From: a virus
Virus record (IMG/VR): IMGVR_UViG_3300027859_000051
Coordinates: 1-33,446 of that record
Reading direction: 5' to 3' (one strand)
Length of the DNA stretch: 33,446 nucleotides
A program made the translations under genes and the position numbers. Of the stretch, positions 9,394-24,382 are shown in pieces; the first letter of the stretch is position 1, and every line of letters begins with the position of its first letter. Below the pieces are notes generated by a model that was not told where the DNA came from, made no database searches, and worked only from the letters and a program-made list of their open reading frames with translations.

Positions 9394-9404
9394 GTGAATT
9401 AATT

Positions 9405-9424: not shown

Positions 9425-9426
9425 GG

Positions 9427-9451: not shown

Positions 9452-9459
9452 GGTATAAT
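9431..9459 (+). promoter_or_regulatory. T4 early-like promoter P4
   Basis: TTTACA (9431-9436) and TATAAT (9454-9459) are 17 bp apart with TGG before the -10. The spacer contains the terminator's T-run. The predicted start near 9466 leaves a 26-base leader with AAGGAG before the ATG at 9492. Confidence 0.88.
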
Positions 9460-9491
9460 ACTCTTATAAAATAAAAAAGTAAGGAGATTTT

Positions 9492-10560: not shown

Positions 10561-10561
10561 T

Positions 10562-10741
10562 ATGAAAGAGTACAATGTGACGGAAGGTCCGTTTCAAACA
10601 GAGTATGAATGTATACACAGAATGCGCGAAATATCTGACTTCTTACTTAAGTGGCATTCTAAGAAAGAAGTCTCCTTTTCTACTAAATTGAAAGAAACAT
10701 CTAATTGGTTTTTAGATTATACAATTTATGATAGAGCTTAA
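10562..10741 (+). CDS. Small hypothetical protein (59 aa)
   Basis: The start at 10562 is preferred because AAAGGAG lies about 9 bases upstream; a start seven codons earlier lacks a ribosome site. The product (MKEYNVTEGPFQTEYECIH...) is soluble-looking, with Trp and Phe scattered through a likely helical body ending in WFLDYTIYDRA. It follows the phosphatase gene by one base and overlaps the next by 14 bases. No family recognised. Confidence 0.7.
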   Translation: MKEYNVTEGPFQTEYECIHRMREISDFLLKWHSKKEVSFSTKLKETSNWFLDYTIYDRA

Positions 10742-10931
10742 CATATATCAAGTTTTTATATTACTCATATTCTCAGTTCTAATAGGAAGAGAGATATGGA
10801 TTAAAGGTCTAAGAGTTGGCGCAGAACGCGCGGTGGAACAACTACATAGAATAAAAGTTATTGCATTTGATAACAAAGGTAATATAAAACCTAATCCTTT
10901 TTTTGACGGTTACGAAGAAACAGAAAAATAA
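10728..10931 (+). CDS. Small single-span membrane protein (67 aa)
   Basis: The N-terminus (MIELNIYQVFILLIFSVLIG) is one hydrophobic helix. It is followed by a charged cytoplasmic-type tail with AERAVEQLHRIKVIAFD and a proline-containing end. It overlaps the previous gene by 14 bases and is the last gene before the block of late-type proteins. No function can be given. Confidence 0.7.
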   Translation: MIELNIYQVFILLIFSVLIGREIWIKGLRVGAERAVEQLHRIKVIAFDNKGNIKPNPFFDGYEETEK

Positions 10932-10933
10932 AT

Positions 10934-10950
10934 TGCATAAATAGACATGT
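10934..10950 (+). promoter_or_regulatory. Candidate T4-type late promoter
   Basis: TTGCATAAATA ends at 10943 and contains CATAAATA (10936-10943), one base from the T4 late consensus TATAAATA. It lies in a short gene-free gap exactly before the run of late-type, capsid-targeted proteins. The predicted start near 10950 is upstream of every possible ATG of the next gene. Confidence 0.5.
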
Positions 10951-10977
10951 AATTTTATTTAAATGGGAAACATGTTT

Positions 10978-12381
10978 ATGCGTTTTAAAACTTTCACTAT
11001 ACAAGAAGCAGTCAAGCTAACCCCACAACAATTGGAAAAAAATAATTCCAAAACGGGTGAAGCCAGAATCGATATTCTTATGCGTCTTATTCAAGACAAA
11101 GTTCCTTTGGAACTTGCAAAAGGTGGAACGTTTAAAGTTGGTGATGAATACATTGATGACGCCATAGCACATTGTCAAAATTTTAAAAAAAATTCAGACC
11201 ATTACGGCAAATCTGGATTTCCTCTTACAGATAAAACTGGAAAGGAAATTAAATCAAACGATCTTGCTAAATCTAAAGTAATGGGTGGTGGAACCGGTGG
11301 CGCTGGTTCTGGTTCAAAAGATACCGCAAGGAACGAATCTCATAACGCATGTATGATGCGTGCAATGGTCGATGATGGTTGGAGTAATGATTTAGATCAT
11401 TTTGACGAAGCACGTATAGCAAAAGCGTATAAAGATAATGGTTCCAAACACATTGACATTAATACAGATCAAATATTAGAAGCACCAGATAACTGGGTTA
11501 TGTCTTCGTATGTTATATCTAAATGGTTAGCAAAAGAAGGATATATCCATAAAGGTCAAGTCTTCGACCGCGCGGGTCCGTACATGACTTTAATATATCA
11601 ATTAAAGAATATGGCTTATAAGAATAATGGATTTAAACCATTAAAAGATGATAAGTGGAACCCAGGTGATGTTTGGGCCGTAGAAAAAGGTATGGATGTA
11701 AAAAAAGAACTAGATGTTAGTTCTGTTGGCGCACTAAACGCTTCCATTATGAAATTGTTTAATGAAAGAAGATTAGTTGCTATCTCATTAAAGGGTCCAG
11801 AGAAAAGCGATCCTCCACCAAATAAAGAATATAATAACAAAGTACCACCAGAAACCCCAAGACATAAATTAAAAGCAATTGAACTAGAATCCAAAGGTGG
11901 AAACTTTTGGTCATCAAAAGGTATGACAATTGTTTATGATACTGGGGCTATGACATTTAAGGATAACTCTCCAGGTGATTCAAACAAAGCTGAAATAAAA
12001 GGTAAGAAAGCCAGAGGTGGTGGATTATCTTGGGGTATTATGCTAGACTTTATAAAAAGAACTGTTGGTAAAGCTCCTCCCGCACACGCGAAGGGTATTA
12101 AACCTAAAGCCAAGCAAATAGCAAAAGGTAATAGAAGAGCTACTAAATTAATGTTTGATTTATATAGTGAATTCTATAGGGGTACAAAATTTAAAGACTT
12201 TGAAGAAGAACTAAAGAAGAAAGATTGGACATGGATCTCTGCTAAACTTGGTGCTTTATATGTTGCATATTTCTTACAAAAGAATATAGGGCAAAAGGCA
12301 GATAACATTATGACAAACTTTGTTAACTATGCAGGTTCAAATATGACCGATTCTTCAACTTACATAAAGGTAGGAAAATGA
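10978..12381 (+). CDS. Late-type protein with capsid-targeting-like N-terminus and possible PD-(D/E)XK-like core
   Basis: ATGs at 10963, 10972 and 10978 are in frame. I prefer 10978 because it gives MRFKTFTIQEA, matching the capsid-targeting-like start of the genes that follow, and GGGAAA lies 7 bases upstream. The 467-residue product has a glycine-rich linker (MGGGTGGAGSGSKD) near residue 100. GDVWAV at 230-235 is followed about 35 residues later by LVAISLKG (Lys272). A D...SxK pair after an alpha-helical LNASIMKLFNERR is compatible with a degenerate PD-(D/E)XK nuclease. The C-terminus is basic. The first gene after a late-type promoter; the nuclease idea is tentative. Confidence 0.8.
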   Translation: MRFKTFTIQEAVKLTPQQLEKNNSKTGEARIDILMRLIQDKVPLELAKGGTFKVGDEYIDDAIAHCQNFKKNSDHYGKSGFPLTDKTGKEIKSNDLAKSKVMGGGTGGAGSGSKDTARNESHNACMMRAMVDDGWSNDLDHFDEARIAKAYKDNGSKHIDINTDQILEAPDNWVMSSYVISKWLAKEGYIHKGQVFDRAGPYMTLIYQLKNMAYKNNGFKPLKDDKWNPGDVWAVEKGMDVKKELDVSSVGALNASIMKLFNERRLVAISLKGPEKSDPPPNKEYNNKVPPETPRHKLKAIELESKGGNFWSSKGMTIVYDTGAMTFKDNSPGDSNKAEIKGKKARGGGLSWGIMLDFIKRTVGKAPPAHAKGIKPKAKQIAKGNRRATKLMFDLYSEFYRGTKFKDFEEELKKKDWTWISAKLGALYVAYFLQKNIGQKADNIMTNFVNYAGSNMTDSSTYIKVGK

Positions 12382-12755
12382 AATCATTTAAAGATAGACA
12401 TTTTGGATTACATGAGGGTAAAATGGTTCCTTTGGAACAACCTATGGTCGAGGCAGAATACCAAGGCGATAATGTTGAACTAAATAAACCAAGAAGAAGT
12501 TCAGGTCCAAAAAAATTCGTAGTATACGTAAAAGACCCTTCATCAGGAAACGTTAAGAAAGTTAATTTTGGAAACGCAAAAGATGTAGAAGGTGGAGACG
12601 TAAAAATTAATGACAAAGAAAGAGCTAAAGCTTTTTCGGATAGACATGATTGTCCGAATAAGAAAGATAAATTAGCTCCTGGATATTGGGCATGTAATTT
12701 GCCTAGATATGCTAAACAGTTAGGATTAAAAGGTGGCGGAAATTATTTCTGGTAA
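12378..12755 (+). CDS. Late-type protein with MKSFK start and Cys-containing C-terminus
   Basis: This 125-residue protein begins MKSFKDRHFGLHEGKM: a capsid-targeting-like start followed by an L-H-E|G site at about residues 11-14. The rest contains GPKKFVVYVKDPSSGNVKKV and RAKAFSDRHDC plus APGYWACNL, a two-cysteine motif with flanking aromatics. Proteins with this YVKD...KVNFG / RH.C...YWAC pattern are frequent in phages and seem to form a small stand-alone domain. It overlaps both neighbours (4 and 23 bases). Function unknown. Confidence 0.85.
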   Translation: MKSFKDRHFGLHEGKMVPLEQPMVEAEYQGDNVELNKPRRSSGPKKFVVYVKDPSSGNVKKVNFGNAKDVEGGDVKINDKERAKAFSDRHDCPNKKDKLAPGYWACNLPRYAKQLGLKGGGNYFW

Positions 12756-13005
12756 ACCTTATACCGAACAAGACGGTATCAGGACATTTAATGTTCAGGC
12801 ACCTGATAGTGAATATGTTTGGCATAGAGATAATTCAGATCGTGAAGTAGAAATACTAGAAGGAGAAGGTTGGCAATTACAAATAGAAGATTGTTTACCT
12901 ATGTTATTAAACGATGTTAAAAAGGTATTTATTCCAAAAGGGGTTTACCATAGACTAATAAAAGGATATAATACTTTAAAGGTACAAATAAATGAAATCA
13001 CTTAA
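12733..13005 (+). CDS. Small cupin-like protein
   Basis: This 90-residue protein starts with GTG at 12733, overlapping the gene before it by 23 bases. It contains YVWHRDNSDREVEILEGEGW and VFIPKGVYHRLIKG, the two conserved halves of a cupin beta barrel with candidate metal ligands (His, Glu and the second His). Such mini-cupins occur in many marine T4-like phages. No capsid-targeting start is present, unlike its neighbours. It could be a sugar- or amino-acid-binding barrel or an enzyme; the substrate is unknown. Confidence 0.8.
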   Translation: MAEIISGKPYTEQDGIRTFNVQAPDSEYVWHRDNSDREVEILEGEGWQLQIEDCLPMLLNDVKKVFIPKGVYHRLIKGYNTLKVQINEIT

Positions 13006-14227
13006 ACAATACATTCCGGAATCTAAGAATACTCACATGACACATATTGAGGATTTAGTTCTGGATGGTGGAGTTAAGGGAGCCAGACAGGCAATACTTG
13101 CCCTTCGATCACTAAGGGATATGCTTGCTGGGAATTCACCCACAACGGTAGACGTCACTGTGAAGTGGGACGGTGCTCCCGCCGTATTCGCGGGAATTGA
13201 TCCAAGCGATGGTCAATTCTTCGTTGCAAAGAAAGGGATCTTTGCAAAAACTGGGGCTAAGGTGTATAAGAATCATGATGACATTGATGCAGATACATCT
13301 GGCGATTTAAATAAAAAACTTAAGCTCGCATTTAACGAACTAAAAGATCTTGGGATAACAGGAGTTATACAAGGTGACTTTATGTTTGAAAAGAAAGATC
13401 TTAAGATAGAAAAAATAAATGGTATTAAACATTTAGTCTTTCACCCAAATACAATCGCTTATGCCGTACCGGTAAACACACCTTTAGCAAAAGAAATAGC
13501 TAAAGCAAAAGTAGGAATAGTATGGCATACATCTTACTCAGGCGCAAACTTTCAATCCATGAAGGCAGAGTTTGGTGGTAATATAACTAAAAAATTAAAA
13601 CAATCTAAATCTGTTTGGATGCAGGACGCAACATTACCTGGTACACAAGAAGCAGTATTAGATTCCAAAACAACAAAAGAAGTTACATTGGCATTATCAA
13701 ATGCTGGTAAAATGTTTCAAAAGATTAAGTCAGGTGTATTAAAAGAGATAGAAAGTAATAAAGAATTAAATATGGTTCTGAATATATTTAACAATACAAA
13801 GGTTAGAGAAGGAACTAGAATAACAGATACATCTAAACATGTTGACGAATTAATCGATTGGGTTAATAATCGTTACACAAAACAAGCAGATAAAATGAAA
13901 TCAGACAAAGGTAAAGCTGGCGTTGAAGCTAAAAAATCTGCAGTATTATCATTTTTCAGTAAAGAAAATAAGAAAAATCTGAAAAATGTCTTTGATTTAC
14001 AGAATTTTATTGTTGATAGTAAATTAATTATTATAAATAAACTAAACAGTCTCAGTAATATTGGGACGTTTGTAAAAACAAAATCCGGATTTAAGGTAAC
14101 CAACGCGGAAGGTTTTGTTGCCATAGATCGTACGGAAGGTGGAGCTGTTAAGCTTGTTGATAGATTAGAATTTTCTTTTAACAACTTTAGCAAAGATATA
14201 ATTAAAGGCTGGGATAATCCAGGCTAA
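12992..14227 (+). CDS. Ligase-like nucleotidyltransferase with KxDG motif (DUF6267-like), capsid-targeting start
   Basis: This 411-residue protein begins MKSLKQYIPES (I-P-E|S site). It then has TVKWDGAPAVFAG with Lys58 in a KxDG motif, the adenylated-lysine site of DNA/RNA ligases and capping enzymes. A QGDFMFE block (127-133) resembles motif III, and KVGIVWHTSYSG (about 165-176) resembles motif IV. A lysine-rich helical C-terminal part follows from about residue 230. If the motifs are functional, it transfers AMP to a nucleic acid end. It may be related to cyanophage DUF6267 proteins. A GC-rich codon island covers the KWDG region. The ligase homology is from motifs only. Confidence 0.83.
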   Translation: MKSLKQYIPESKNTHMTHIEDLVLDGGVKGARQAILALRSLRDMLAGNSPTTVDVTVKWDGAPAVFAGIDPSDGQFFVAKKGIFAKTGAKVYKNHDDIDADTSGDLNKKLKLAFNELKDLGITGVIQGDFMFEKKDLKIEKINGIKHLVFHPNTIAYAVPVNTPLAKEIAKAKVGIVWHTSYSGANFQSMKAEFGGNITKKLKQSKSVWMQDATLPGTQEAVLDSKTTKEVTLALSNAGKMFQKIKSGVLKEIESNKELNMVLNIFNNTKVREGTRITDTSKHVDELIDWVNNRYTKQADKMKSDKGKAGVEAKKSAVLSFFSKENKKNLKNVFDLQNFIVDSKLIIINKLNSLSNIGTFVKTKSGFKVTNAEGFVAIDRTEGGAVKLVDRLEFSFNNFSKDIIKGWDNPG

Positions 14228-14245
14228 ATGGGAATAACCGAGGAT

Positions 14246-14596
14246 ATGAAATCATTTAAAGAGTTTCATCAAACAGACGAGGCCTTGTCAATGGCAACTC
14301 GTATGAAGATGAAGGCAGCATTTAGAAAGAATAAAGCCAAGATCGCAATTGGTAGAAAGAAAGCTGCAAAAAAACTCGCATCCCCAGAAAAGCTCAAGTC
14401 AAGAGCAGTTAAGCAAGCCCGTAATTTAATTATAAAGAAGATGTTAAAAGGAAGAGATAAGTCTGAACTTTCTTTTGCCGCAAGAGGTGATTTAGAAAAG
14501 AAAGTATCAAAGAAGAAAGGTAAGATAATGAAACTTGCTAAGAAACTTCTCCCTGCCGTAAAAAAAGCTGATAAAGCAAAATTGAGAAAAGATTGA
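14246..14596 (+). CDS. Lysine-rich late-type protein with capsid-targeting-like start
   Basis: The preferred ATG at 14246 gives MKSFKEFHQTDEALS; an in-frame ATG at 14228 adds six residues and cannot be excluded. The 116-residue product is extremely basic: MATRMKMKAAFRKNKAKIA, then GRKKAAKK, and KKLLPAVKKADKAK at the end. Composition is like a DNA-condensing internal protein such as T4 IPI-IPIII. Its first 17 bases are identical to those of the gene at 12378. Homologous lysine-rich proteins occur in cyanophages. Likely packaged with DNA, by inference. Confidence 0.85.
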   Translation: MKSFKEFHQTDEALSMATRMKMKAAFRKNKAKIAIGRKKAAKKLASPEKLKSRAVKQARNLIIKKMLKGRDKSELSFAARGDLEKKVSKKKGKIMKLAKKLLPAVKKADKAKLRKD

Positions 14597-14597
14597 T

Positions 14598-15806
14598 ATG
14601 AAAGAATTTAAATCATTTAGTAATTATTTAAAAGAAAACACGAACGACGTAGTATTTGCATTTGGTCGATTTAATCCACCAACTATTGGTCATGAAAAAT
14701 TAATGGAAGCAGTAAAGAAATTAGCAAGAGGTGGAACATATAGAATATATCCAAGTCAATCTCAAGATGCTAAAAAGAATCCATTAGACTTTAAATTAAA
14801 AGTAAAGTTTATGAGAAAGATGTTTCCTAAACATGCTAGAAACATTATGGCTGATAAAGGAATGAGAACAGCATTTGATGTTATTGTTGCTCTATATGAC
14901 CAAGGATATACAAAGGTTACATTTGTAGCTGGTGAAGATAGAATCATAGAATTTAATAAACTCTTTAACAAATATAATGGTGTTAAAGGAAGACATGGCT
15001 TTTACCAATTTGAGAATGGGGTAAAGGTCGTAAGCGCGGGCGAACGCGATCCGGATGCCGAAGGCGCTACTGGTATGTCAGCTTCTAAATTAAGAGCGGC
15101 AGCCTCTGACAATAATTTAAAATTATTTGCTAAAGGTATGCCAAAAGGATTTAAAGAAGTAGAAAGCCTATTCAATGCAGTAAGAGCTGGTATGGGTTTA
15201 AAAGAATCCAAAGACTTTAGAAAACATGTACAGTTAGAAAAAGTTTCCGACAGAAGAGAAGATTATGTAAACGGAAAACTATTTAGAACTGGTGACGAAG
15301 TTATAATAAAAGAAACCCAAGAGGTTGGAAAGATTACAGTTCTTGGAGCTAACTATGTTATGGTTGATTTTGGAAATAGCAAAAGAAGGTGTTGGCTCGA
15401 AGATATAGAACTATTTGAATATTTAGAAACAATGGCTGGGGAAGATGGAACAAAGAAATTAGTTAAGAACTATAAGAAGATGACCCCAGGCGAAGGTATG
15501 AAAGAAACTAAAAAGTCTTTTAGGAGTTTCTTAGAAAAGAAAAAGAAAAGAGATACACATGGGGATAAGCTAAGAAAAGACTTTGAAGCTAATCCAGGTA
15601 AGGGAGATGATTCCACAGACGCTAAAAGAAGAGCACAGTTTAATAAGCAGGCAGAGATGGATGATGATAACCCAAGGGCATATAAAGATGCACCAGGGGA
15701 CAAAAAAGCTAGATCTAAACCTATGAAAAAGTCACAATATACAACTGCTTACCATAGAATGTATGGTGATAAGGAAAAAGAATTGGAGAAAAAGAAAAAG
15801 AAATGA
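14598..15806 (+). CDS. Cytidylyltransferase/NMN-adenylyltransferase-like protein fused to basic modules
   Basis: The N-terminal 200 residues of this 402-residue protein are a nucleotidyltransferase: after a MKEFKSFSNYLKEN start comes FGRFNPPTIGH (T29-x-G-H32, the HxGH-like site). VTFVAGEDRI lies near residue 120 and GMSASKLRAAA at 160-169, the equivalent of the ISSTxIR signature. A small beta domain with DEVIIKETQEVGKITVLG follows (about 230-280). A second capsid-targeting-like segment appears at about 301-315 after a GEG site. The end is lysine-rich with SQYTTAYHRMYGD. It likely makes a dinucleotide or activates a phosphate group; the fusion and the targeting start suggest packaging. Overlaps the next gene by 4 bases. 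Confidence 0.88.
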   Translation: MKEFKSFSNYLKENTNDVVFAFGRFNPPTIGHEKLMEAVKKLARGGTYRIYPSQSQDAKKNPLDFKLKVKFMRKMFPKHARNIMADKGMRTAFDVIVALYDQGYTKVTFVAGEDRIIEFNKLFNKYNGVKGRHGFYQFENGVKVVSAGERDPDAEGATGMSASKLRAAASDNNLKLFAKGMPKGFKEVESLFNAVRAGMGLKESKDFRKHVQLEKVSDRREDYVNGKLFRTGDEVIIKETQEVGKITVLGANYVMVDFGNSKRRCWLEDIELFEYLETMAGEDGTKKLVKNYKKMTPGEGMKETKKSFRSFLEKKKKRDTHGDKLRKDFEANPGKGDDSTDAKRRAQFNKQAEMDDDNPRAYKDAPGDKKARSKPMKKSQYTTAYHRMYGDKEKELEKKKKK

Positions 15807-16633
15807 AACAATTTAAACAACTAAGAGAAGGACTTTGGGCTAACATTCATAAGAAAAGAAAAGAAGGTCGTCCAATGAGAAAGAAAGGTGAGAAAGGCGC
15901 ACCAACAGCAGCTGCTATGGCTAAAGCAAAAGCTGGTTCCAAGAATGGAAGTACATCGATGGAAGCTGTTGAACAAGCTCTAACACAATTAGAAAAAGCA
16001 TACGATGCAAAAGATATAGCAAAGGTTAAAGTTTTAGAAAAGAAATTAGAAAAAATGCTTAAAGAAGTAGATAAGACTATGAAAGGTTCAGGTTTATCTG
16101 CACCGGCATTCTCAATGGTTCGTGGTGGTATCGTAAAAGGTCTTGAAGCTATAAAGAAATTCTATAGAATTGCAGACAAAAATGAAAGTGTTAATGAAGA
16201 CGGTATGATGTCAGTAAGAAAACAGAATATGTCTAAAGTTAAACCCATGTTATCTAAACTTGCACAGAAACATAAAGGTGTTACTTTAGATTTCGAAAAA
16301 GATGGTATTACCGTAAACTTTAAAGGAAAAGATAAAGACATTGATAATCTAATGAGAGATATGGAAAAAGACAAAAAGCTTATGAAGCTTATGGAGTTAA
16401 CAGAAGGAAAAGGTACAGATGCAGCTTTACAGAAAAAAGCTGATGCATCTGGTATTTCAAAAAGTATTTTAAAAAAGGTATATGATAGAGGATTAGCTGC
16501 TTGGAAGGTTGGACACAAACCAGGTACAACTCCACAACAATGGGGAATGGCTAGAGTAAACTCCTTCATAACAAAAGGTAAAGTTTGGCACAAGTATGAC
16601 AGTGACTTACGTAAACAACACCAAGGTAAATAG
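15803..16633 (+). CDS. Modular late-type polyprotein ending in a DUF5824-like domain
   Basis: This 276-residue protein begins MKQFKQLRE|G, followed by GLWANIHKKRKEGRPMRKKG, a short basic module that recurs in marine phages. A coiled-coil-like region (about 55-90) leads to V-N-E|D at 130-133, then a small module, then L-T-E|G at 199-202. The last 75 residues (ILKKVYDRGLAAWKVGHKPG, PQQWGMARVNSF) match the DUF5824 family. Each module boundary coincides with an [LIV]-x-E site, as expected of a prohead-protease substrate. Functions of the modules are unknown. Separate-protein versions seem to exist elsewhere, from memory. Confidence 0.82.
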   Translation: MKQFKQLREGLWANIHKKRKEGRPMRKKGEKGAPTAAAMAKAKAGSKNGSTSMEAVEQALTQLEKAYDAKDIAKVKVLEKKLEKMLKEVDKTMKGSGLSAPAFSMVRGGIVKGLEAIKKFYRIADKNESVNEDGMMSVRKQNMSKVKPMLSKLAQKHKGVTLDFEKDGITVNFKGKDKDIDNLMRDMEKDKKLMKLMELTEGKGTDAALQKKADASGISKSILKKVYDRGLAAWKVGHKPGTTPQQWGMARVNSFITKGKVWHKYDSDLRKQHQGK

Positions 16634-17983
16634 GTGAACGAAAAGTTAAAAGTTTCTGACGGTATAGGTGCTTGGATTAAAGACTTCATGAAGTCTGATG
16701 CTCCACAATTTGATGGTAAGAGTATGGACAGAAGAAGAAAAATGGCAATTGCGGCGTTTGTAGATGCCGGAGGAAAATTAAAAGAGGGTAAAATGAATAA
16801 CGAAGGTAAAATGGATGGATCAAAGTTAACTGGTCAAGAGATCAGTGTATACTTTCGAAAGAATCCAATAAAAGCGACAGATAAGAAATACGGCAAAATG
16901 TTAAAGAAAGCCGTTGAATTTGCACTAGACCACGGCGGAGCAATGAGCTACGCTATTAAAGGTATAGAGAAAATGGCGAGGGGTTTATCTAAACATCCCG
17001 AAGTTAAAAAAGCTTTAAGATATGCAAACGAAAGTGTACACCACGAATCAGTTTGGACTGTTAAGAATATTATACAGGAAAACTATACACGTAACTTTGA
17101 AACACTATGTCAAAGCTTAAAGTTAAATGGTATACAACAAAAGATCTTAGATGACTTTATTCACAAAGGAAGAATTAGAGATCAATACGTTGGACGTGTA
17201 GCTGGATCTAAAAAAGAATCTAGAGTATTTGCAGGTAAAAAGAAATTTACTGGAAGTATAGATAATAGAAACGAAGCTTTAACTCAAGCCCTCAAGGTTA
17301 ATGCTAAACAAAAATCTATACTTGATGCTTATCTAAAAACAGGTAAAGTGATTGGTAAGTACACAGGTTCAATGGCTGGATCAACAAAGACAACTAAAGA
17401 ATATAAAGGCTTTAGAGGATTTAAAGAACACTTTGATACTGAAACAATCTTTGAAACAAATCTAATTGCTGAAGGTATGAGTAAACCTATGACAATGAAA
17501 GATGTTAAAGCAATTGAGAAAAAGTATGGCGAAAAAATGAGTCCAGAAGAGGTAAAAGATTATTTAAGTACACAGGTAAGTCCGAAAGGATCAGCAAGAC
17601 CAGAAGCTTGGTTATCATTAAGTTATCCTGTAAGATCTGGGGATTATTACTTTGCTCTAATTGGAAAAGATAGAAACACCAATATTAAAAACAATATTAA
17701 AATGAATGACCAGCTTAAAAAAATGACTAAAGTATATGATGAACCAGATCCATTATACGACAACTTTATGGATTGGGCTTATAAAAATATTAAGAATTCA
17801 GGTGTTGGCGATACAATGTCAAGAGAAGAGATTTGGGCAGCTTGTTTACACATACTAAAAATGAGAGTAGCTACAGTTTACGTAAAAGAAGATGACTTTA
17901 AAGAATCTAAGTTTAAACAGTTATTAGCAAAATTTAAAAGAGGTTTTAGAAACCTAAGACCAAAATTTAAAAAGAAAGGATAA
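16634..17983 (+). CDS. Modular late-type polyprotein with an internal tandem repeat
   Basis: GTG at 16634 follows the upstream stop directly, with AAGGT about 8 bases before it. The 449-residue product opens with the module KVSDGIGAWIKDFMKSDAPQ, common in marine phages. L-K-E|G (49-52), I-Q-E|N (147-150) and I-A-E|G (278-281) sites separate parts. I-A-E is exactly the T4 internal-protein cleavage type. Residues 154-206 and 212-265 are two copies of one unit (LKLNGIQQKILDDFIHKGR versus LKVNAKQKSILDAYLKTGK, each followed by a VAGS/MAGS turn). The last module (281-449) is soluble with Trp and Tyr. Unlike its neighbours it lacks MKxFK. Role unknown. Confidence 0.82.
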   Translation: MNEKLKVSDGIGAWIKDFMKSDAPQFDGKSMDRRRKMAIAAFVDAGGKLKEGKMNNEGKMDGSKLTGQEISVYFRKNPIKATDKKYGKMLKKAVEFALDHGGAMSYAIKGIEKMARGLSKHPEVKKALRYANESVHHESVWTVKNIIQENYTRNFETLCQSLKLNGIQQKILDDFIHKGRIRDQYVGRVAGSKKESRVFAGKKKFTGSIDNRNEALTQALKVNAKQKSILDAYLKTGKVIGKYTGSMAGSTKTTKEYKGFRGFKEHFDTETIFETNLIAEGMSKPMTMKDVKAIEKKYGEKMSPEEVKDYLSTQVSPKGSARPEAWLSLSYPVRSGDYYFALIGKDRNTNIKNNIKMNDQLKKMTKVYDEPDPLYDNFMDWAYKNIKNSGVGDTMSREEIWAACLHILKMRVATVYVKEDDFKESKFKQLLAKFKRGFRNLRPKFKKKG

Positions 17984-17988
17984 TTATT

Positions 17989-19062
17989 ATGGCATATCAA
18001 ACATGGAAAGACGCATACAAACAAGTTGTATTGGATGAGGCAAAGGTTTCATATAAAATTGACCACATTAATTCAGTTGGTGACATAGAAAAAGAATTAA
18101 AAAGAGGTGATGCAAAAATTGTAAACACTAAATCAACAAGAGATGGTGTCATTGTACAATTTGATGTACCTTCTAGAAGGGCTCACGCTGAGTTAAAAAA
18201 ACTTGTTATGAAACATGATAAAGATGCTGTAATGGAAGGTAAAACCGATATGACTGCTATATCCTCTTGGAAAAAGAAATTAAAGGATGTAAAAGGTTTA
18301 ACTAAACAACAAATACAAATGTTAAGTACTTTACCAACACCAGTAATTACTTCTCTTATAAACCAAGTTGGTATGATTGTTGCTGATATGAGTGAAGATA
18401 TAAGTGAAGGTAAAAGAACAGATGGCGCAACATCCTTTATGTTTAAGAATGGTCCAGATTCTAAAAAGTTCTTAGCATACGCAAAAGATTTTAGAAAGGC
18501 AGAAAGATGGACAATGAATGGTTTATTCTTTGTAGATGTATATGATGTTAATAAACCAGTTGCTATAAAGTTAGCTAAGTTCCACAGACAGTTTTGGAAA
18601 GAAGATGTTAACGAAGGTATGAACATGAAACAGATCATGCGTAAACACGGAAGAGAGTTAAAGAAGGCCGTAAGAACTGGTAACTTAGAATTATCTGACA
18701 AAGCAGAAGAAGATCTACAACAATGGGTATTTGATAACGAACCCTATGTAGGTGATGACCCTGATGATTTTGACCAATGGTTAGATGATAATATAGAAGA
18801 TATTGTCAAAGGCAGAATTAAAGAAGTTAATGAAGGAATGGTTGATATAGAAAAAGCACGACAACTTCCTGATAAGATTCAAAAACAAATCATAGCTTTG
18901 AAAAAAGAATACGATAGAACATGGGACGGAGTATTTGTCCCTATGGGTAAAGAAGGAAGCTCACAAAGAAAAGAATATGAAAGAAGAGGTGCTTTATTCA
19001 AAGCAGCAAGTAAAAAATACAAAGATTTCCTAAAGAAACATAAAGTAGCAAATTTCAAATGA
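17989..19062 (+). CDS. Five-module late-type polyprotein with regular [LIV]-x-E-G junctions
   Basis: This 357-residue protein has candidate cleavage sites L-D-E|A (15-18), V-M-E|G (81-84), I-S-E|G (138-141), V-N-E|G (207-210) and V-N-E|G (280-283). They cut it into five parts of 57-75 residues. The second VNEG is followed by Met, and the first by MNMKQIMRKHGRELKKAV. That second-last module (RTGNLELSDKAEEDLQQW...DDPDDFDQWLDDNIEDIV) is a separate helical domain I have seen in other marine phage proteins. The start MAYQTWKDAYK is only loosely like the MKxFKxF signal. AAGGATAA precedes the ATG. Function unknown; see findings. Confidence 0.82.
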   Translation: MAYQTWKDAYKQVVLDEAKVSYKIDHINSVGDIEKELKRGDAKIVNTKSTRDGVIVQFDVPSRRAHAELKKLVMKHDKDAVMEGKTDMTAISSWKKKLKDVKGLTKQQIQMLSTLPTPVITSLINQVGMIVADMSEDISEGKRTDGATSFMFKNGPDSKKFLAYAKDFRKAERWTMNGLFFVDVYDVNKPVAIKLAKFHRQFWKEDVNEGMNMKQIMRKHGRELKKAVRTGNLELSDKAEEDLQQWVFDNEPYVGDDPDDFDQWLDDNIEDIVKGRIKEVNEGMVDIEKARQLPDKIQKQIIALKKEYDRTWDGVFVPMGKEGSSQRKEYERRGALFKAASKKYKDFLKKHKVANFK

Positions 19063-19349
19063 AAAAATTTAAAGACTTTAGAGAGAACGTAACATTTGCA
19101 AAACATAATTCTTATGTTGGTGCAAGTGATACTGATAATCCTTTAGATGAAAAATTGGTAGCTAGTGATATTAGTATATTAGATACTATTTTAAATAAGA
19201 TTAAAGATGATGTTATGAAGAATAAGTTAGCTGGTAAGTTTGAGAAAAGTTGGCCGATGATGCAGCAGTTAGCAAAAATGGCTGGGTATGGTATAACTAA
19301 AAAAGGTCAGCAAAAGAGTAAAACATACCAATGGAAATTAAAGAAATGA
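19059..19349 (+). CDS. Small late-type protein with MKKFKDF start
   Basis: This 96-residue protein overlaps the polyprotein gene by 4 bases and begins MKKFKDFRENV. An L-D-E|K lies at about residues 29-32. The rest is a helical domain with a winged-helix-like layout (ILDTILNKIKDDVMKNKLAG, WPMMQQLAKMAGYGIT) and a basic end. It may be a small DNA-binding internal protein, but no family is recognised. Confidence 0.8.
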   Translation: MKKFKDFRENVTFAKHNSYVGASDTDNPLDEKLVASDISILDTILNKIKDDVMKNKLAGKFEKSWPMMQQLAKMAGYGITKKGQQKSKTYQWKLKK

Positions 19350-19726
19350 AAAAGTTTAAAGAAGTAAGAAAAGAAACAAAGAAACCTACTCCATATATGA
19401 CATGGAATAATAAAAACTTTGGTGAAGGAACTATGTCTCAAGGTATATTTGACAAAGATATGGACAGAGCCAAAGACGCAGCAAGAAGTTTAGTTATGTT
19501 TCTTAAGTCTAACCAAGACGTAACAGTTGGTGGCAAACAAGATAAAGAAGGAAATCCAATCGAAGGTCCAAGCGACACATTAGATGGATATGTAAAAGAA
19601 CTTATGGGTTATGTGTTTGATGACAAAATGATAGATGAATTATTAAACGTTAAATCTAATAGCGGTAAAAAAGCAAATGATATTGTTGTTGTTAGATTAA
19701 AAGAAATGGGAGTCAGAATACACTAA
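19346..19726 (+). CDS. Small late-type protein with MKKFKEV start
   Basis: The ATG at 19346 makes an ATGA overlap with the upstream stop, which fits the coupling used throughout, and gives MKKFKEVRKETKK; an ATG 15 bases upstream is less likely. The 126-residue product contains WNNKNFGEGTMSQGIF, which looks like a module junction followed by a helix-rich domain (RAKDAARSLVMFLK, DGYVKELMGYVFDDKM). No known family is recognised. It ends in a TAATG overlap with the coiled-coil membrane gene. Confidence 0.8.
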   Translation: MKKFKEVRKETKKPTPYMTWNNKNFGEGTMSQGIFDKDMDRAKDAARSLVMFLKSNQDVTVGGKQDKEGNPIEGPSDTLDGYVKELMGYVFDDKMIDELLNVKSNSGKKANDIVVVRLKEMGVRIH

Positions 19727-20043
19727 TGGCAAAAATGACAGCAAACGAGCAAAGAGAACAACAGTCAGCTAGACTAGATAGGATTGAACAAAAGATTGAT
19801 AAGATGTCGGATGTAATTGTTGCACTCGCGAGGGCGGAAGAGAAAATAACTACCCTTACTAGCTTTAGTAAACAACAATCAGAAATGATTCAACACATGA
19901 CAATAAGGTTGGATAGGTTAGAAGCTGCTGTGCAGCAGAATGCTTCAACCATAAATATTATAAATAAACTGTTCTGGATAATAATCGCAGCTGCTGCAAC
20001 AGCGGTGACCGGAATGATATTTTTAGGATCTCCAATCCTATAA
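19726..20043 (+). CDS. Coiled-coil protein with C-terminal membrane anchor
   Basis: This 105-residue protein has a long heptad region (about 8-75, ARLDRIEQKIDKMSDVIVAL and further) and ends with one hydrophobic helix, LFWIIIAAAATAVTGMIFLG. A C-tail-anchored coiled coil of this size recurs in marine T4-like phages. It could form a membrane-bound oligomer at lysis or assembly, but nothing visible decides that. Start overlaps the previous stop (TAATG). No capsid-targeting sequence. Confidence 0.8.
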   Translation: MAKMTANEQREQQSARLDRIEQKIDKMSDVIVALARAEEKITTLTSFSKQQSEMIQHMTIRLDRLEAAVQQNASTINIINKLFWIIIAAAATAVTGMIFLGSPIL

Positions 20044-20073
20044 ATTTAATGCAATATAACGGGAGAAAAAACT

Positions 20074-20844
20074 ATGAAATTGCAAGATAAAGAGAACCTG
20101 GACATTGCATCCGCGGTCAGCGATGTTTTAGAAGGGAAAGTAAAAAAAGAGGAATTTAAACCTCACATGATGTACCACCCAGACAACGGTAAAGAAGTTC
20201 ATGTTAAGTCGAAAGAAGAACATGAAAAATATGCCGCTAAAGGTTGGGTTCACGAAAAACCTAAAATGGAATCACCTGAAGAGCCAAGAGCAAAAGGCGA
20301 AAAGGAATTTAAAGATAAGCATTCTGTTAAAAAATCTGGTATGAGAAATGATGGTTCTAATATGAAAGAAGAAACCACAATCACACTAGAAATAGGTGAT
20401 GAAGAGCTAGATGAAGCTTCAAAACCAGGAAGAGGTAAAACTAAACTTGATATAGATTATATCGGTGATAGAAAACTTACAAAAGATGCTGAAAAGAAAC
20501 ACAAAATTAAAATCAAGCAAACTGGTAGAACAACTGCTGATGTTAGTGGCGAAAAGAAAAATATCGTAGCATTTATGAAAGACCCAGATATTATGGGAAT
20601 GGATGATATGGATTTAGAAGATCTATACCCAGAACTATATGAAGCTACTAAACAAGAAGGATATTTGGATGTTGAAGAAGGTGAAGAACTTTCTCCAAAG
20701 CAAAAAAAATATCAAGCATTCTTTAAGAAAGCTTTGAAAAAGTTTGGTGTTGAATCTCCATCTGAATTAGACGATGCTAAGAAAAAAGAATTCTTTAATT
20801 ACATAGACAAGAACTATGATGCAGGTGATGGGGAGACAGACTAA
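20074..20844 (+). CDS. Late-type modular protein (256 aa)
   Basis: GGGAG 8 bases before the ATG gives a good start. The product opens MKLQDKENLDIASAVSDVLEGKV, with V-L-E|G at about 18-21, then an acidic/basic low-complexity part including YHPDNGKEVHVKSKEEHEKY. L-D-E|A (about 112-115) leads into a small alpha/beta module (KTKLDIDYIGDRKLTKDAEK, IVAFMKDPDIMG). After a VEEGEEL junction comes the final module LSPKQKKYQAFFKKALKKFG plus SPSELDDAKKKEFFNYIDK, a domain widely present in phage proteins. It fits the modular pattern of this block. Function unknown. Confidence 0.8.
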   Translation: MKLQDKENLDIASAVSDVLEGKVKKEEFKPHMMYHPDNGKEVHVKSKEEHEKYAAKGWVHEKPKMESPEEPRAKGEKEFKDKHSVKKSGMRNDGSNMKEETTITLEIGDEELDEASKPGRGKTKLDIDYIGDRKLTKDAEKKHKIKIKQTGRTTADVSGEKKNIVAFMKDPDIMGMDDMDLEDLYPELYEATKQEGYLDVEEGEELSPKQKKYQAFFKKALKKFGVESPSELDDAKKKEFFNYIDKNYDAGDGETD

Positions 20845-21119
20845 TGAAAACATTTTTTGAATTTAGAGACGAATCAGCTGAATTGTCAGAAGGCAAATTA
20901 ATGGTTAAAGCTTTCGTGGGTTCAGAAGGCGGCGGACCATCTTATAAAAAGTTTGGACTTAAACTTAAGAAATTAGGTTCAAGCCAATATGGTGGAGATG
21001 ACGTAGAATTATCTGGGCCAGACGCTAAACTTATGAAATTTGCAATTGCTGCATTAGGAGTTGAAAAACCTAAGAATCTTAAGGATGCACAAAAACAAAT
21101 AGATGACCAAGGTCCATAA
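20844..21119 (+). CDS. Small late-type protein with MKTFFEF start
   Basis: This 91-residue protein starts MKTFFEFRDESAELSEGKL: the capsid-targeting-like stretch, then L-S-E|G at 14-17. The remaining 75 residues form one small domain (MVKAFVGSEGGGPSYKKFGL, with a final FAIAALGVEKPKNLKDAQ helix). It starts on the last base of the gene before it. The 40-base gap after it holds a possible promoter. No function known. Confidence 0.8.
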   Translation: MKTFFEFRDESAELSEGKLMVKAFVGSEGGGPSYKKFGLKLKKLGSSQYGGDDVELSGPDAKLMKFAIAALGVEKPKNLKDAQKQIDDQGP

Positions 21120-21144
21120 GTTTTAATTAACCGCTCTGACAGAG

Positions 21145-21157
21145 TGTATATATAATA
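21145..21157 (+). promoter_or_regulatory. Candidate second-class promoter element TGTATATATAATA
   Basis: The 13-mer lies two bases before the ATG at 21160 and is identical to one at 23568-23580, also right before an ATG. It includes TATAAT and resembles the T4 late -10 box. No -35 of the P1-P7 type is present at 17 bp. A small palindrome CTCTGACAGAG (21134-21144) lies just upstream. Confidence 0.4.
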
Positions 21158-21159
21158 GT

Positions 21160-21528
21160 ATGAAGGTTTTTGATAAATTGACAAATAAGAACTTTGAGAT
21201 GTTCGCAGCTCATTATTATAATAATCCAGAATGCATGGATATAGATGAGTTTAAAGAAGATCTTTCTAGGTTTAAGTATTTAAAAAGATTACTGAAAAGG
21301 TATGAAACCGACGGTGATCTACAAGAAAGATTAATATTAAATCATTTAATTGTTCTATATAATGTGTTTGGTATTAAACCATGTAATAGAATGATGTGGT
21401 TTAAAATCAACAATGAACACTATCATTACATAAAACCTTTCTTAGTATTTTTACATTATCTGCCAGAAGATGAGAAAGTTGAAATTGGTATGGATCCAGA
21501 GATTGTAGAGAGACTAAGAAACTTATGA
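21160..21528 (+). CDS. Conserved phage protein (FKEDLSRFKYLKRLL family)
   Basis: This 122-residue protein has FKEDLSRFKYLKRLLKRYETD, then LILNHLIVLYNVFGIKP, and MMWFKINNEHYHYIKPFLVF followed by YLPEDE. This pattern recurs almost unchanged in many T4-like phages (a DUF7207-type family). Location in the late block suggests a role in morphogenesis, but its function is not known. The ATG at 21160 has no Shine-Dalgarno sequence and follows a TATAAT-containing element by two bases, so the mRNA may be leaderless. It overlaps the next gene by 4 bases (ATGA). Confidence 0.85.
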   Translation: MKVFDKLTNKNFEMFAAHYYNNPECMDIDEFKEDLSRFKYLKRLLKRYETDGDLQERLILNHLIVLYNVFGIKPCNRMMWFKINNEHYHYIKPFLVFLHYLPEDEKVEIGMDPEIVERLRNL

Positions 21529-22190
21529 GATGGACAACAAAACATATACAGCAGTTAAAAGAGGGGTCAATCTCCCGTTTGGCCGATACTGCTTATGCAC
21601 TGAGATTTCTTAGACTTTTAACTATGCCTTGGGAAAAGACTGAGGCATTTAAATTAGGTATCATAGACAAAAATGGTCGAAGAACAGAGTATAGAGATTA
21701 CTCTGCTTCTACTGTTGGCAGAATGGAAAGAACACCAATTGATACTCCTAAAAAGAAAGCCGCATACACTGTATTCCATAAATTAGTTTTTAATCTAAGA
21801 AGAATCCTAGCTAAAATCCCATTTGGTAAAACCGTAGTTGCAAGATACGGCGCAGCACTTTATCTTATAAAAGAACATACAAATATGAGTGAGAAACAAT
21901 TACGTAAGATAATGGATAAAGTGGAAACAGAATTTGATTGGGATAATTTACAATTAGAAGAAAGTACTTGGTTCCAATCTATAGATGGTAAATTAAATCC
22001 AGGTTCATACGTATTAGTAAATGATATAGCTTCTCCTTTAACTGGTGAGCTAATAGCAAAATCTAATTCTAGAATTAAAGTAGAAGAACAATTAGAACCA
22101 TGTGATACATTTTTAGGTTCATCAATCTATAAGGTAAAACACCAAACAGGTCAACACATTTTTATTACAAACCAGGACATAGTAAGATGA
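21525..22190 (+). CDS. Conserved late phage protein with capsid-targeting-like start
   Basis: This 221-residue protein opens MRWTTKHIQQLKEGSISRLA with L-K-E|G at residues 11-14. It continues with the well conserved phage block ADTAYALRFLRLLTMPWEKT and AFKLGIIDKNGRR. FHKLVFNLRRILAKIPFGK and ARYGAALYLIKEHT follow. The C-terminal third is beta-rich (GSYVLVNDIASPLTGELIA, IYKVKHQTGQHIFIT). It overlaps both neighbours as ATGA. Similar proteins occur across marine T4-like phages with no known function; a structural or packaged role fits its place. Confidence 0.83.
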   Translation: MRWTTKHIQQLKEGSISRLADTAYALRFLRLLTMPWEKTEAFKLGIIDKNGRRTEYRDYSASTVGRMERTPIDTPKKKAAYTVFHKLVFNLRRILAKIPFGKTVVARYGAALYLIKEHTNMSEKQLRKIMDKVETEFDWDNLQLEESTWFQSIDGKLNPGSYVLVNDIASPLTGELIAKSNSRIKVEEQLEPCDTFLGSSIYKVKHQTGQHIFITNQDIVR

Positions 22191-23578
22191 TAACAGTAAT
22201 ATGCCTAACAAAATCCGAAGGTGACGATAAGAATGATACTGTTTATAAGTTAGAAAAACAAGCACAAAAACGTGGCATTTCTTTTTATAAGGTTAGTCTT
22301 GGCGAAGCATTTGTAATTGATAATGATCTATTTGGTGATAAGATTACTATACACAACTTTGATGGTGAAGGTAATAAGATTAATATTAAACCTTCCGAGA
22401 CCGCGTGCATCGTGCGCGGAGGCGCGCTTACAGATATAGCCGGAAGAGGATTAACTAAATCATTAGAAGAAGCTGGTATGTTTATGATTAACAGATACGT
22501 ACCAATGGAACTATGTGCAAATAAATTTACATCATCTATTGCACTTAAAAAAGCAAACATTAATACACCAAGAACAGCATTAGTTACAAACGAACAATCC
22601 ATTGATATTGCAATGAAAGAGATTGGTGGTAAACTTCCAGTTATAGCTAAAACCATAACCGGTGCAGAAGGTATCGGTGTTATGAAGATTGAAAGCAAAG
22701 AATCGCTTACTTCAGTCTTACAAGGTTTATGGAAACATAACGCAGAAATTATCCTACAAGAATATATGGATATTGAATACGATGTACGTACATTAGTATT
22801 AGATGGAAAAATATTTGCTGCTATGAAACGTAAACAAACAACTAAAGATGATTTTAGAACAAATAAATCATTAGGTAATGATTATGAACCATACGATTTA
22901 AGTGAAGAAGAACAAAAAATCGTATTAAAAGCAGCAGAAACAAGTGGATGTTATTGGTGCGGTGTTGATACAATTGTTAACGATGGAAAGGTATACGTAT
23001 TAGAAGTCAACGGTTCTCCAGGTACAGGAGATAGTAATGAGATAAGTTATATGAATTACTATGGAGATAAAAAGACTAAAGTAAATGGTTCTAAAATGGT
23101 TGATAACCTTTTAAACTATATAGAGAACAAAGACAATTGGGCATTTCCTAAAACATCAGTTGGTGTTATAGAATGGTGTAAAGTTGAGGGAATGAAATTT
23201 AAAGCTAAACTAGATACTGGTAATTCTGCTGGTGGTATTAGTATACATGCCACAGATATAAAAGAAAAGAATGGTTCAGTATCATTTAAAATAAACGGAA
23301 AGACTTTTAATAAAAAGATAGAAGATCGTAAGATGATTTATTTTGGTGGTGGAGATAATGGTGAAGAAAGACTATTTGTTAAATTAAATATGTCTATTGG
23401 AAACCGTAAACCAAAACCAACATTATTTAATTTAGATAATAGAGAAGATGCTATTTACGATGTACTAATTAACAAAGGATACATGGCGGATGAGAACCTT
23501 GTGGTTGATCCATCTAAGAAATTTACGCTTGGAGAAAGTGTAAAACGTGTATCTACATTCAGGGAAATGTATATATAA
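22187..23578 (+). CDS. RimK-like ATP-grasp ligase fused to a retropepsin-like domain
   Basis: This 463-residue protein has an ATP-grasp ligase in residues 1-300: PVIAKTITGAEGIGVM (ATP loop), IILQEYMDIEYDVRTLVLDG, and metal ligands E273 and N275 in VLEVNGSPGTGD. This is the RimK family, which adds glutamate to protein C-termini (S6 in E. coli). From about residue 325 a second domain begins: KFKAKLDTGNSAGGISIHAT, with D343-T-G, the retropepsin-like DTG of the RimK-associated protease family (Zn_protease/DUF785). Here the two are one chain. The end (FTLGESVKRVSTFREMY) has an L-G-E|S site. Substrate could be a phage internal protein or a ribosomal protein. It overlaps the previous gene by 4 bases. 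Confidence 0.88.
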   Translation: MITVICLTKSEGDDKNDTVYKLEKQAQKRGISFYKVSLGEAFVIDNDLFGDKITIHNFDGEGNKINIKPSETACIVRGGALTDIAGRGLTKSLEEAGMFMINRYVPMELCANKFTSSIALKKANINTPRTALVTNEQSIDIAMKEIGGKLPVIAKTITGAEGIGVMKIESKESLTSVLQGLWKHNAEIILQEYMDIEYDVRTLVLDGKIFAAMKRKQTTKDDFRTNKSLGNDYEPYDLSEEEQKIVLKAAETSGCYWCGVDTIVNDGKVYVLEVNGSPGTGDSNEISYMNYYGDKKTKVNGSKMVDNLLNYIENKDNWAFPKTSVGVIEWCKVEGMKFKAKLDTGNSAGGISIHATDIKEKNGSVSFKINGKTFNKKIEDRKMIYFGGGDNGEERLFVKLNMSIGNRKPKPTLFNLDNREDAIYDVLINKGYMADENLVVDPSKKFTLGESVKRVSTFREMYI

Positions 23579-23580
23579 TA
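23568..23580 (+). promoter_or_regulatory. Candidate second-class promoter element TGTATATATAATA
   Basis: Identical in all 13 bases to the element at 21145-21157, and ends one base before the ATG at 23582. It overlaps the stop region of the ATP-grasp gene. Function as a promoter is inferred. Confidence 0.35.
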
Positions 23581-23581
23581 T

Positions 23582-23770
23582 ATGGACTTTAAAACTTTTA
23601 AACAAATGTGGGAAGACGCTGCAGCCAATAGCGTAGGTGCTGGTGGTATAGATGGCATTGGAGTTGGTCCAAAAGGTGAACCAGGTGTTCATGTAAACAA
23701 AAAGAAAAAGAAAAAGGAACAAGAAATTCTTATTAAGATGCAGCGTAGATTGATGAATGGAAAGACTTAG
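23582..23770 (+). CDS. Small protein with MDFKTFKQMWE start and poly-lysine stretch
   Basis: This 62-residue protein begins MDFKTFKQMWEDAAANSVG, a variant of the capsid-targeting-like start. A glycine-rich part follows (GAGGIDGIGVGPKGEPGVHV) and then a run of six lysines and a basic tail. Proteins with this VGAGG.dGiGVGP.GEPGV layout occur in other marine phages. It ends inside the next gene (14-base overlap). Probably a small internal protein; function unknown. Confidence 0.75.
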   Translation: MDFKTFKQMWEDAAANSVGAGGIDGIGVGPKGEPGVHVNKKKKKKEQEILIKMQRRLMNGKT

Positions 23771-23999
23771 AAAATTATATAATTGGTTCGTATCATGGTT
23801 TGAAAAACACCAATACTTATACGTATCACACAATCAATATAACTATAACGGCGAAGTTATAGATGTGCTTGAAAAGAAATTTGAAGTTAGAAGATTTTAT
23901 AAACTCAGTGCAAAGCACATGAAATTTAAAACAATGAATGGTAAAAAGGTCGAATTAAAGACCGCTACACCTATGGATTATATGTTGGAGGAAATGTAA
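23757..23999 (+). CDS. Conserved hypothetical protein (80 aa)
   Basis: This 80-residue protein overlaps the gene before it by 14 bases and the spanin-like gene by one. It starts with an aromatic basic helix (MERLRKLYNWFVSWFEKHQY) and continues with strands, a VEVR/KKFEVRRFYKL core and the end ATPMDYMLEEM. The PMDY ending recurs in marine T4-like phage homologues. A membrane-surface role is possible given the aromatic helix, but unproven. Confidence 0.78.
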   Translation: MERLRKLYNWFVSWFEKHQYLYVSHNQYNYNGEVIDVLEKKFEVRRFYKLSAKHMKFKTMNGKKVELKTATPMDYMLEEM

Positions 24000-24382
24000 T
24001 GCAACAATTATTAATAGGTATTATTTTAGTATTAGGACTAGGAGGCTGGTGGCTATTACAAGAAAATGAAACCTTAAAAAATAATAACGTGAAATTGGAA
24101 GCTGCAGTAGAAGAACAACAACAAACTATTGCGGTCATGAAAGAAAATTATGAAAAGCAAGGACAAGCTTTAATGAATATGTCCAGAAAGAATGCTGAGA
24201 TAGAAGCAGAAAAAGCAGAATACTTATCAATCTTTGCAAGACACAATCTAGATAACCTAGCACTCAAGAAACCAGGTCTTATAGAAATTAGATTTAATAA
24301 TGCTAGTGAACTTGTAATGGAGGGATTAGAAGATGACACTGAAAAACTTTTCAATATTGATTCTCCTGACAACGATAATTAG
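23999..24382 (+). CDS. Inner-membrane spanin-like protein (i-spanin candidate)
   Basis: This 127-residue protein has one N-terminal membrane helix (LLIGIILVLGLGGWWLL, residues 4-20). A long charged coiled coil follows (about 22-80: NETLKNNNVKLEAAVEEQQQ and further), then an acidic tail. The gene for a lipoprotein starts inside its 3' end in another frame (50-base overlap). That overlapping arrangement, an N-in membrane coiled coil plus a lipoprotein, is the known Rz/Rz1-type spanin layout. It would span the periplasm and fuse inner and outer membranes at lysis. Confidence 0.72.
   Translation: MQQLLIGIILVLGLGGWWLLQENETLKNNNVKLEAAVEEQQQTIAVMKENYEKQGQALMNMSRKNAEIEAEKAEYLSIFARHNLDNLALKKPGLIEIRFNNASELVMEGLEDDTEKLFNIDSPDNDN

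Follow-up and report, generated by a model that had tools for sequence, protein, structure and literature searches.

A block of 18 genes at positions 10,978 to 23,770 of the virus record IMGVR_UViG_3300027859_000051 very probably encodes a head cargo of the T4 internal-protein type, greatly expanded, as judged by analogy with T4. The window analyzed here is the whole record of 33,446 bases. The phage is a relative of T4 and, as in other T4-like phages, its genes include those for UvsX, both subunits of ribonucleotide reductase and a DnaB-type helicase; based on its relatives it is probably marine. The block is flanked by the helicase gene (7210) and nrdA (25988), and the corresponding genes of cyanophage S-SCSM1 lie between primase-helicase/mazG and primase/nrdA. 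Given that the block has T4-type leader sequences and that relatives of at least two of its proteins occur in virions, it probably encodes a large injected cargo.

In the proposed mechanism, a short leader would bind the prohead core via hydrophobic residues near positions 4 and 7, and the tagged protein would therefore be trapped in the head. The prohead protease gp21 would then cleave [LIV]-x-E behind its Glu. The released protein, in most cases basic, would remain with the DNA and be delivered to the host at infection. The same protease may also cut the joints between the modules of polyprotein-like strings. As these joints carry the same sites, and often internal copies of the leader, one gene may yield several cargo peptides. 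Capture, cutting and host entry of the tagged proteins are modeled on T4, and their function in the host may be early takeover or anti-defense.

Leader sequences and predicted cut sites

T4 ipIII begins with MKTYQEFIAE|A and T4 ipI with MKTFKEFTSTTTPVSTITE|A (bars mark cut positions), and both start like genes of the block. According to a review (PMC9026906), T4 mutagenesis assigned targeting mainly to residues 4 and 7 in the leader of IPIII and processing to residues 8 and 10, and gp21 cuts after L/I-X-E; an Asp at position 10 prevented processing in T4. The block leaders match T4 in having an aromatic residue or Leu near positions 4 and 7, followed by L/I-x-E either directly (as in ipIII) or later (as in ipI). 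We defined a strict pattern as hydrophobic residues at i and i+3 with [LIMVF]-x-E immediately after them. In the T4 stretch that was fetched, it matches ipIII and none of 17 other genes.

The initial annotation of this DNA quoted ten gene starts of the MKxFKxF type, and all ten are present and in frame at the coordinates given for them. Of the 18 block genes, 8 match its start pattern, M[KR]x?[FL]K, and of 33 genes outside the block that we chose for comparison none does (Fisher p=7e-5). The accompanying statement that most of the named genes have [LI]-x-E within 20 residues holds weakly, for six of the ten; within the first 20 residues the motif is found in 8/18 block genes and 6/33 outside (p=0.048), a weak signal alone. 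Broader start patterns were written after the sequences had been read, so that only M[KR]x?[FL]K stems from the initial annotation. A broader start by itself was detected in 11/18 block genes compared with 7/33 outside (p=0.006), and in combination with [LIVMF]-x-E-[AGSDN] within 30 residues in 9/18 compared with 0/33 (p=1.6e-5). A patterned site lies within 30 residues in 12 of the 18 consecutive genes. Over the whole block proteins, [LIV]-x-E-[GAS] occurs 27 times against a shuffle mean of 9.7 (maximum 21 in 1000 shuffles), and outside the block 25 times against 18. The block proteins are also basic, with a median isoelectric point (pI) of 9.5 compared with 5.4 outside (p=4e-4; exceptions are the proteins at 20074, 5.4, and 20844, 7.9), and contain 14% lysine compared with 7.5%.

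To count homologues, we fetched the best 80 of 597 loci with DUF6267; the counts omit sequences with >92% identity to the window (>95% for the module census) and duplicated junction strings. The conservation test asked for [LIVMF]-x-E within six residues of the expected place in distinct homologues. Leaders vary in sequence and length among homologues, and the cut site ahead of the conserved domain stays. It is kept in all homologues of the proteins at 10978 (26/26), 12378 (33/33), 20074 (22/22) and 19346 (3/3), and in 66/68 of those at 12992, 60/62 at 14598, 22/24 at 19059 and 12/14 at 23582, against a background of 2-28% at random positions in the same proteins. The protein at 14246 belongs to the same comparison; 23 of its 26 homologues retain the site, often with Phe or Val at P3. 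At 21525 it was found in 9 of 25, under the random level of 42% for this protein.

Both gp21 and gp23 occur on 4 of the 16 block-bearing contigs of relatives, where gp23 has the junctions ISE|T, ISE|A and INE|. In C48C1, the top tblastn match to the nucleotidyltransferase of the window (14598), a head maturation protease, a scaffold and a major head protein are annotated, and the block genes have similar leaders. The annotated start of the C48C1 cytidyltransferase (L081:20070) omits the leader, and the frame extends upstream through VIKNFSQYLLEEEREVYFTFGR; leaders can thus vanish in annotations. The proposal that these are T4-type targeting leaders with prohead protease sites is well supported by T4 ipI and ipIII, which show the pattern, by the homologues, which keep the site, and by the relatives carrying gp21 and gp23. 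This is also what the initial annotation had suggested looking for in related genomes, namely such starts near sites, with gp21 elsewhere.

Virion detections in related cyanophages

We set the limits of the corresponding blocks in three cyanophages with published virion proteomes. Among S-CREM2 genes 154-160, gp154 (the nucleotidyltransferase), gp155, gp156 and gp160 were detected (4/7; Table 3 of PMC10665884), and among S-SZBM1 genes 133-142 the products of 136, 139 and 140 (3/10; Table 1 of PMC9146016). For S-SCSM1 genes 89-98, the record notes flag 89, 90, 91, 92, 93, 95 and 97 as virion proteins (7/10); this record has 48 virion flags by our count, compared with 45 in the paper. In combination, 14 of the 27 genes were detected in virions. 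Only two window families are among them, the nucleotidyltransferase in all three phages and phrog_1462 (S-SCSM1_90, E 4e-66). The detected nucleotidyltransferases start with MKNFSSFLTE|A in S-CREM2, MRFRQFIIE|A in S-SZBM1 and MKSFLQFLKE|A in S-SCSM1. The nucleotidyltransferase of S-SM1 (T4-GC190), reported as a core gene of 16 cyanophages, was likewise detected in the virion (PMC3037559).

The S-CREM2 authors name six non-structural virion proteins (PMC10665884). Four of them, the SAM hydrolase, kinase, Cas9-like nuclease and nucleotidyltransferase as named in the record, show the strict motif in their first 32 residues, and the two endolysins do not; it occurs in 8 of 167 undetected S-CREM2 proteins. 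The strict pattern is found in 7/52 detected and 8/167 undetected proteins (p=0.04), where three pattern versions were tried and two reached p of about 0.04. With the three genomes combined, the counts are 7/130 detected and 4/589 undetected (p=9e-4), using a pattern that was narrowed after S-CREM2 had been viewed. Ten proteins lay outside the set from which the idea was formed (kinase and SAM hydrolase homologues and their neighbors), and seven of them fit the strict pattern by eye. The kinase of S-CRM01, reported in virions (cited in PMC10665884), starts with MISFDQFLSE and fits; the S-H34 and S-N03 kinases and the S-H34 SAM-hydrolase-like protein do not, by eye.

Some further details of these proteins were noted. 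The virion-detected Cas9-like nuclease gp12 of S-CREM2 (L084:7704-10313) has FASFMAE|A about 25 residues in, and proteins apparently in the gp12 position have FSSFLKE|A in S-H34 and FSNFLKE|A in S-N03. The virion-flagged S-SCSM1_93 (L114:41627-41836, 69 amino acids) ends in a leader-like RTFKEFLEYIE. S-CREM2 gp160 (L082:18343-19236) and S-SCSM1_97 (L114:43122-43307) contain a near copy of the segment behind the predicted cut site of the major capsid protein gp23; both are small and virion-detected, and match phrog_696 with E-values of 5e-10 and 5e-12, respectively.

Modular build and genes of the block

Judged by their sequences, several block proteins look like modular polyproteins, a build with internal sites that the initial annotation does not mention. 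The predicted sites in the protein at 17989 delimit modules of about 57-75 residues, and four of seven related loci match a single module. Of 33 distinct internal points across the block at which homology breaks off, 14 coincide with predicted sites, compared with 5.9 expected (p=0.001). For eight modules we collected 119 fused copies, of which 109 keep the predicted site compared with 30 expected, and 20,000 simulations never exceeded 49. This total omits two modules, the helical module of 16634 (27/40 fused with an upstream site) and residues 115-190 of 20074 (14/14).

DUF5824 illustrates this most clearly. In C48C1 it is a short open reading frame (ORF) of its own with the leader MITFKKYLEE, in the window it is the C-terminal part of the protein at 15803, and in 49 of 54 ORFs it is fused behind the nucleotidyltransferase. 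An internal leader (e.g., LTFEDFMVEE) was found in 31 of 44 distinct fusions and in 0 of 1470 background windows, using a pattern written after examples had been seen. Among the 13 fusions missed by this pattern, eight contain MKSFKQSLEE-type strings. All 44 have [LIVMF]-x-E, a lenient measure because it can also be satisfied by an upstream FGE or MAE. A fused homologue was modeled (mean pLDDT, a per-residue confidence score, of 69), and its two leaders, at 1-13 and 380-393, are among eight segments below 50 and lie next to better-predicted domains. Only 4 of 29 Glu columns are invariant in the fused family, and among them are Glu 12 of the leader and Glu 380 of FGE. No peptidase was identified in the module proteins by Pfam or PHROGs, and most modules lack a family; the Zn_protease domain of the protein at 22187 sits on a separate chain. 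From these sequence features we lean slightly toward the release of separate modules from the fused chains.

All block genes are on the (+) strand. The first (10978..12381) encodes the phrog_1462 protein, with the leader MRFKTFTIQE and a predicted cut at IQE|A after residue 10 (codon 11005-11007); a longer frame begins at 10963. A tblastn search of phages with this protein returned six weak records only, and megablast of window positions 9000-25000 against phages gave no match. The following gene (12378..12755) encodes a small basic protein (phrog_7595) with a predicted cut at LHE|G after residue 13. The small acidic protein at 12733..13005 (pI 4.9) has no leader and no family match and is probably not cargo. 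The DUF6267 protein (12992..14227; PF19782, E 1.3e-99) has the leader MKSLKQYIPE and a predicted cut at IPE|S after residue 10. The initial annotation mentions a ligase-like protein, and by eye this one contains a ligase-like motif, KWDG. Foldseek found no match to its model with E of 0.001 or lower; a second structural look returned tRNA/DNA ligases at Z 4.0-5.3 amid unrelated helical rows. These rows hint at a ligase and are too weak for us to file the protein as one.

The very basic small protein at 14246..14596 (pI 10.9, phrog_23027) has the leader MKSFKEFHQTDE and a possible cut at E|A after residue 12, where P3 is not L/I. It is followed by the NMNAT/cytidylyltransferase-like nucleotidyltransferase (14598..15806; phrog_395, E 2e-76), which has the leader MKEFKSFSNYLKE, a predicted cut at LKE|N after residue 13 and extra candidate sites after residues 203 and 313. 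The catalytic part of a homologue model resembles NadD/CoaD-type adenylyltransferases (best Foldseek E 1.6e-4). Cyanophage authors suggest a role in the metabolism of nicotinamide adenine dinucleotide (NAD) (PMC10665884), and the enzyme perhaps acts on NAD. Sequence searches of solved structures, made with two alignments, returned nothing useful.

Next are the multi-module proteins. The one at 15803..16633 has the leader MKQFKQLRE|G and two sites further in, VNE|D (132) and LTE|G (201); the DUF5824 module (PF19141) follows the second of these. The one at 16634..17983 has a GTG start with only M-N-E, and sites LKE|G (51), IQE|N (149) and IAE|G (280). These two genes share a frame, with TAG followed directly by GTG at 16631-16636, and likewise in a near-identical contig. 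The module string at 17989..19062 has sites LDE|A (17), VME|G (83), ISE|G (140), VNE|G (209) and VNE|G (282). The protein at 19059..19349 starts with MKKFKDFRE and has LDE|K (31) followed by a module that is fused elsewhere in relatives, and the one at 19346..19726 has the leader MKKFKE and FGE|GTM (27). The product of 19726..20043, with a C-terminal hydrophobic stretch (by eye) and no leader, is probably not cargo.

The acidic protein at 20074..20844 has VLE|G (20) and internal sites LDE|A (114) and LYE|A (190). The one at 20844..21119 begins with MKTFFEFRDESAELSE|G (16), and in four relatives its module is the C-terminal part of large ORFs, behind an xE|G site. The phrog_407 protein (21160..21528) has no leader, and its counterparts by eye, S-CREM2 gp159 and S-SCSM1 96, were not detected in virions. 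The phrog_18642 protein (21525..22190) has LKE|G (13); here, as in 17989 and 20074, a site is present and an MKxFKxF start is absent. A fusion of a RimK-like ATP-grasp and a Zn_protease (PF05618) domain without a leader is encoded at 22187..23578, and copies with 71-100% identity were seen on five viral contigs in one scan. The last gene (23582..23770) encodes a small basic protein starting MDFKTFKQMWE|DAAANSVG. We considered a likeness of this protein to the gp23 arm and found it unconvincing, as 8 of 300 shuffles did equally well (for three homologues, 62, 11 and 15 of 300). Beyond the block, the window encodes a class 3 lipase (24866-25624) and a cytochrome c (29377-29817).

Alternative explanations and known systems

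Several observations weigh against reading the block as injected head cargo. In genes 12733, 19726, 21160 and 22187 there is no leader that has a site close by, and gp21 was not found in the 33 kb fragment. Scans for T4-type late promoters (TATAAATA, CTAAATA) found no enrichment, so the description of these proteins as late in the initial annotation has no support by the promoter route. The strict pattern misses T4 ipI, and the conservation counts are not independent because the homologues are related. The published virion data are tryptic-peptide detections in relatives, and the strict leader is present in 3 of the 14 detected block proteins, all nucleotidyltransferases, and absent from the other 11. 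For two of the 14 (S-SZBM1_136 and S-SCSM1_95) the annotation is structural or tail fiber protein. The DUF6267 protein of S-SZBM1 is leaderless and was undetected in the virion. Virions of S-PM2 did not yield the nucleotidyltransferase (Clokie 2008, cited in PMC3037559), and it is not named in the account of the 14 proteins detected in S-CREM1 (PMC9964418). The looser pattern in S-CREM2 gave 5/52 compared with 8/167 (p=0.17). Within the first 14 residues the strict pattern was unenriched in S-SZBM1 (1/30 compared with 3/188), where none of the patterns tried reached enrichment, and in S-SCSM1 (1/48 compared with 3/234). The claim that the whole block is packaged is too wide. The initial interpretation is largely right, with homologues of the nucleotidyltransferase and the 10978 family detected in virions, but the whole-block claim is too strong in view of at least four leaderless genes, the undetected 21160 counterparts, the undetected S-SZBM1 protein and the 11 detected proteins without a strict T4-type leader.

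How the internal sites are read separates two versions of a head cargo with T4-type leaders. The internal sites could be flexible Glu/Gly-rich linkers in fused proteins that stay whole, since E, G and K commonly abound in linkers between domains; the internal-leader pattern was post hoc, and the fused model has further low-confidence stretches. We consider this somewhat less likely than the release of modules, given that joints carry sites in 109 of 119 copies against an expectation drawn from the same ORFs, that whole leader copies lie inside the chains, with MKSFKQSLEE-type strings in most of the fusions missed by the pattern, and that the Glu residues of the leader and of FGE are among so few invariant ones. 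We mildly favor a modular delivery system in which genes exchange cargo modules. A module would occur by itself behind a terminal leader or in a fusion that has internal leaders, and the head protease would turn the fused chains into separate injected proteins.

Core proteins use the same protease, and the numerous sites in each of 17989, 16634 and 20074 would also fit parts of the prohead core or scaffold (like gp22, gp67 and gp68) that are chopped by gp21 and mostly leave the head. This is unlikely, as some homologues occur in mature virions, folded enzymes are included, and the genes adjoin replication genes, not gp21-gp23. It is more improbable still that abundant proteins merely contaminated the virions in which they were detected and that the common start has nothing to do with packaging, reflecting translation start or another localization. 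Carry-over was raised by the S-CREM2 (PMC10665884) and S-SCSM1 authors, and the S-SCSM1 flags include a translational repressor, so some detections may be carry-over; the lack of detection in S-PM2 points the same way. Contamination does not, however, fit with a start that is absent from 33 other genes, with protein-level conservation that covers the cut residue, with the same protein in four phages from four papers, or with leaders that match the proven ones of T4.

Among the closest cases to an injected cargo of this kind are the virion NMNAT/cytidylyltransferase and kinases of S-SM1, S-SCSM1, S-CREM2, S-SZBM1 and S-CRM01, which include a homologous nucleotidyltransferase in the corresponding position that is detected in virions. 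Leaders are seen here in three of the nucleotidyltransferases and in the S-CRM01 kinase; in contrast, the publications, in the sections on these proteins, describe no targeting leader or protease site and leave the entry route open. A literature search (titles and abstract openings, with few subscription journals) found no description of such leaders in cyanophages, and "capsid targeting sequence" and "cyanophage" co-occurred only via one reference-list mention of cyanophage. Cyanophage virions have repeatedly yielded enzymes that their authors could not place, and for which they could not exclude carry-over, including nucleotidyltransferase, kinases, SAM hydrolase and a Cas9-like nuclease. 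A leader of the T4 type whose cut site is conserved would explain how such enzymes enter the head, and would allow the injected proteins of T4-like viruses, which are abundant in the ocean, to be predicted from sequence. It would also point to polyprotein-like processing within a phage head, and it makes the question of what such phages deliver at the first moment of infection directly testable. If the modules are indeed released, the head would act as a chamber in which cargo polyproteins are processed.

In phiKZ and SPN3US (PMC5694885 and PMC9026906), head or ejection proteins likewise have propeptides that are cut after a short motif ending in Glu. There, the motif is S/A-x-E (phiKZ) or A-x-E (SPN3US), and the cargo includes a virion RNA polymerase. 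Polyvalent proteins of phages and conjugative elements (PMC5512222) combine many effector-like domains per chain and are thought to be injected and proteolytically released. Several domains per chain are also found in the block, as the nucleotidyltransferase-DUF5824 fusion and the module strings. Polyvalent proteins differ in that embedded peptidases are said to release the domains, where a head protease is proposed for the block, and T4-type leaders are undescribed in that account.

The T4 proteins IPI, IPII, IPIII and Alt share with the block the hydrophobic or aromatic residues near positions 4 and 7, the L/I-x-E|A site and the basic mature proteins, and the T4 internal proteins (IPs) are likewise unrelated proteins with only the leader in common. 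The T4 IPs are reported to inhibit Type IV restriction (PMC12373910). T4 differs in scale, with three IPs and Alt, whereas the window has 12 of 18 genes with a patterned site, as well as enzymes and multi-site module strings. By analogy with T4, the block probably works like, and is, an internal-protein cargo set of this type.

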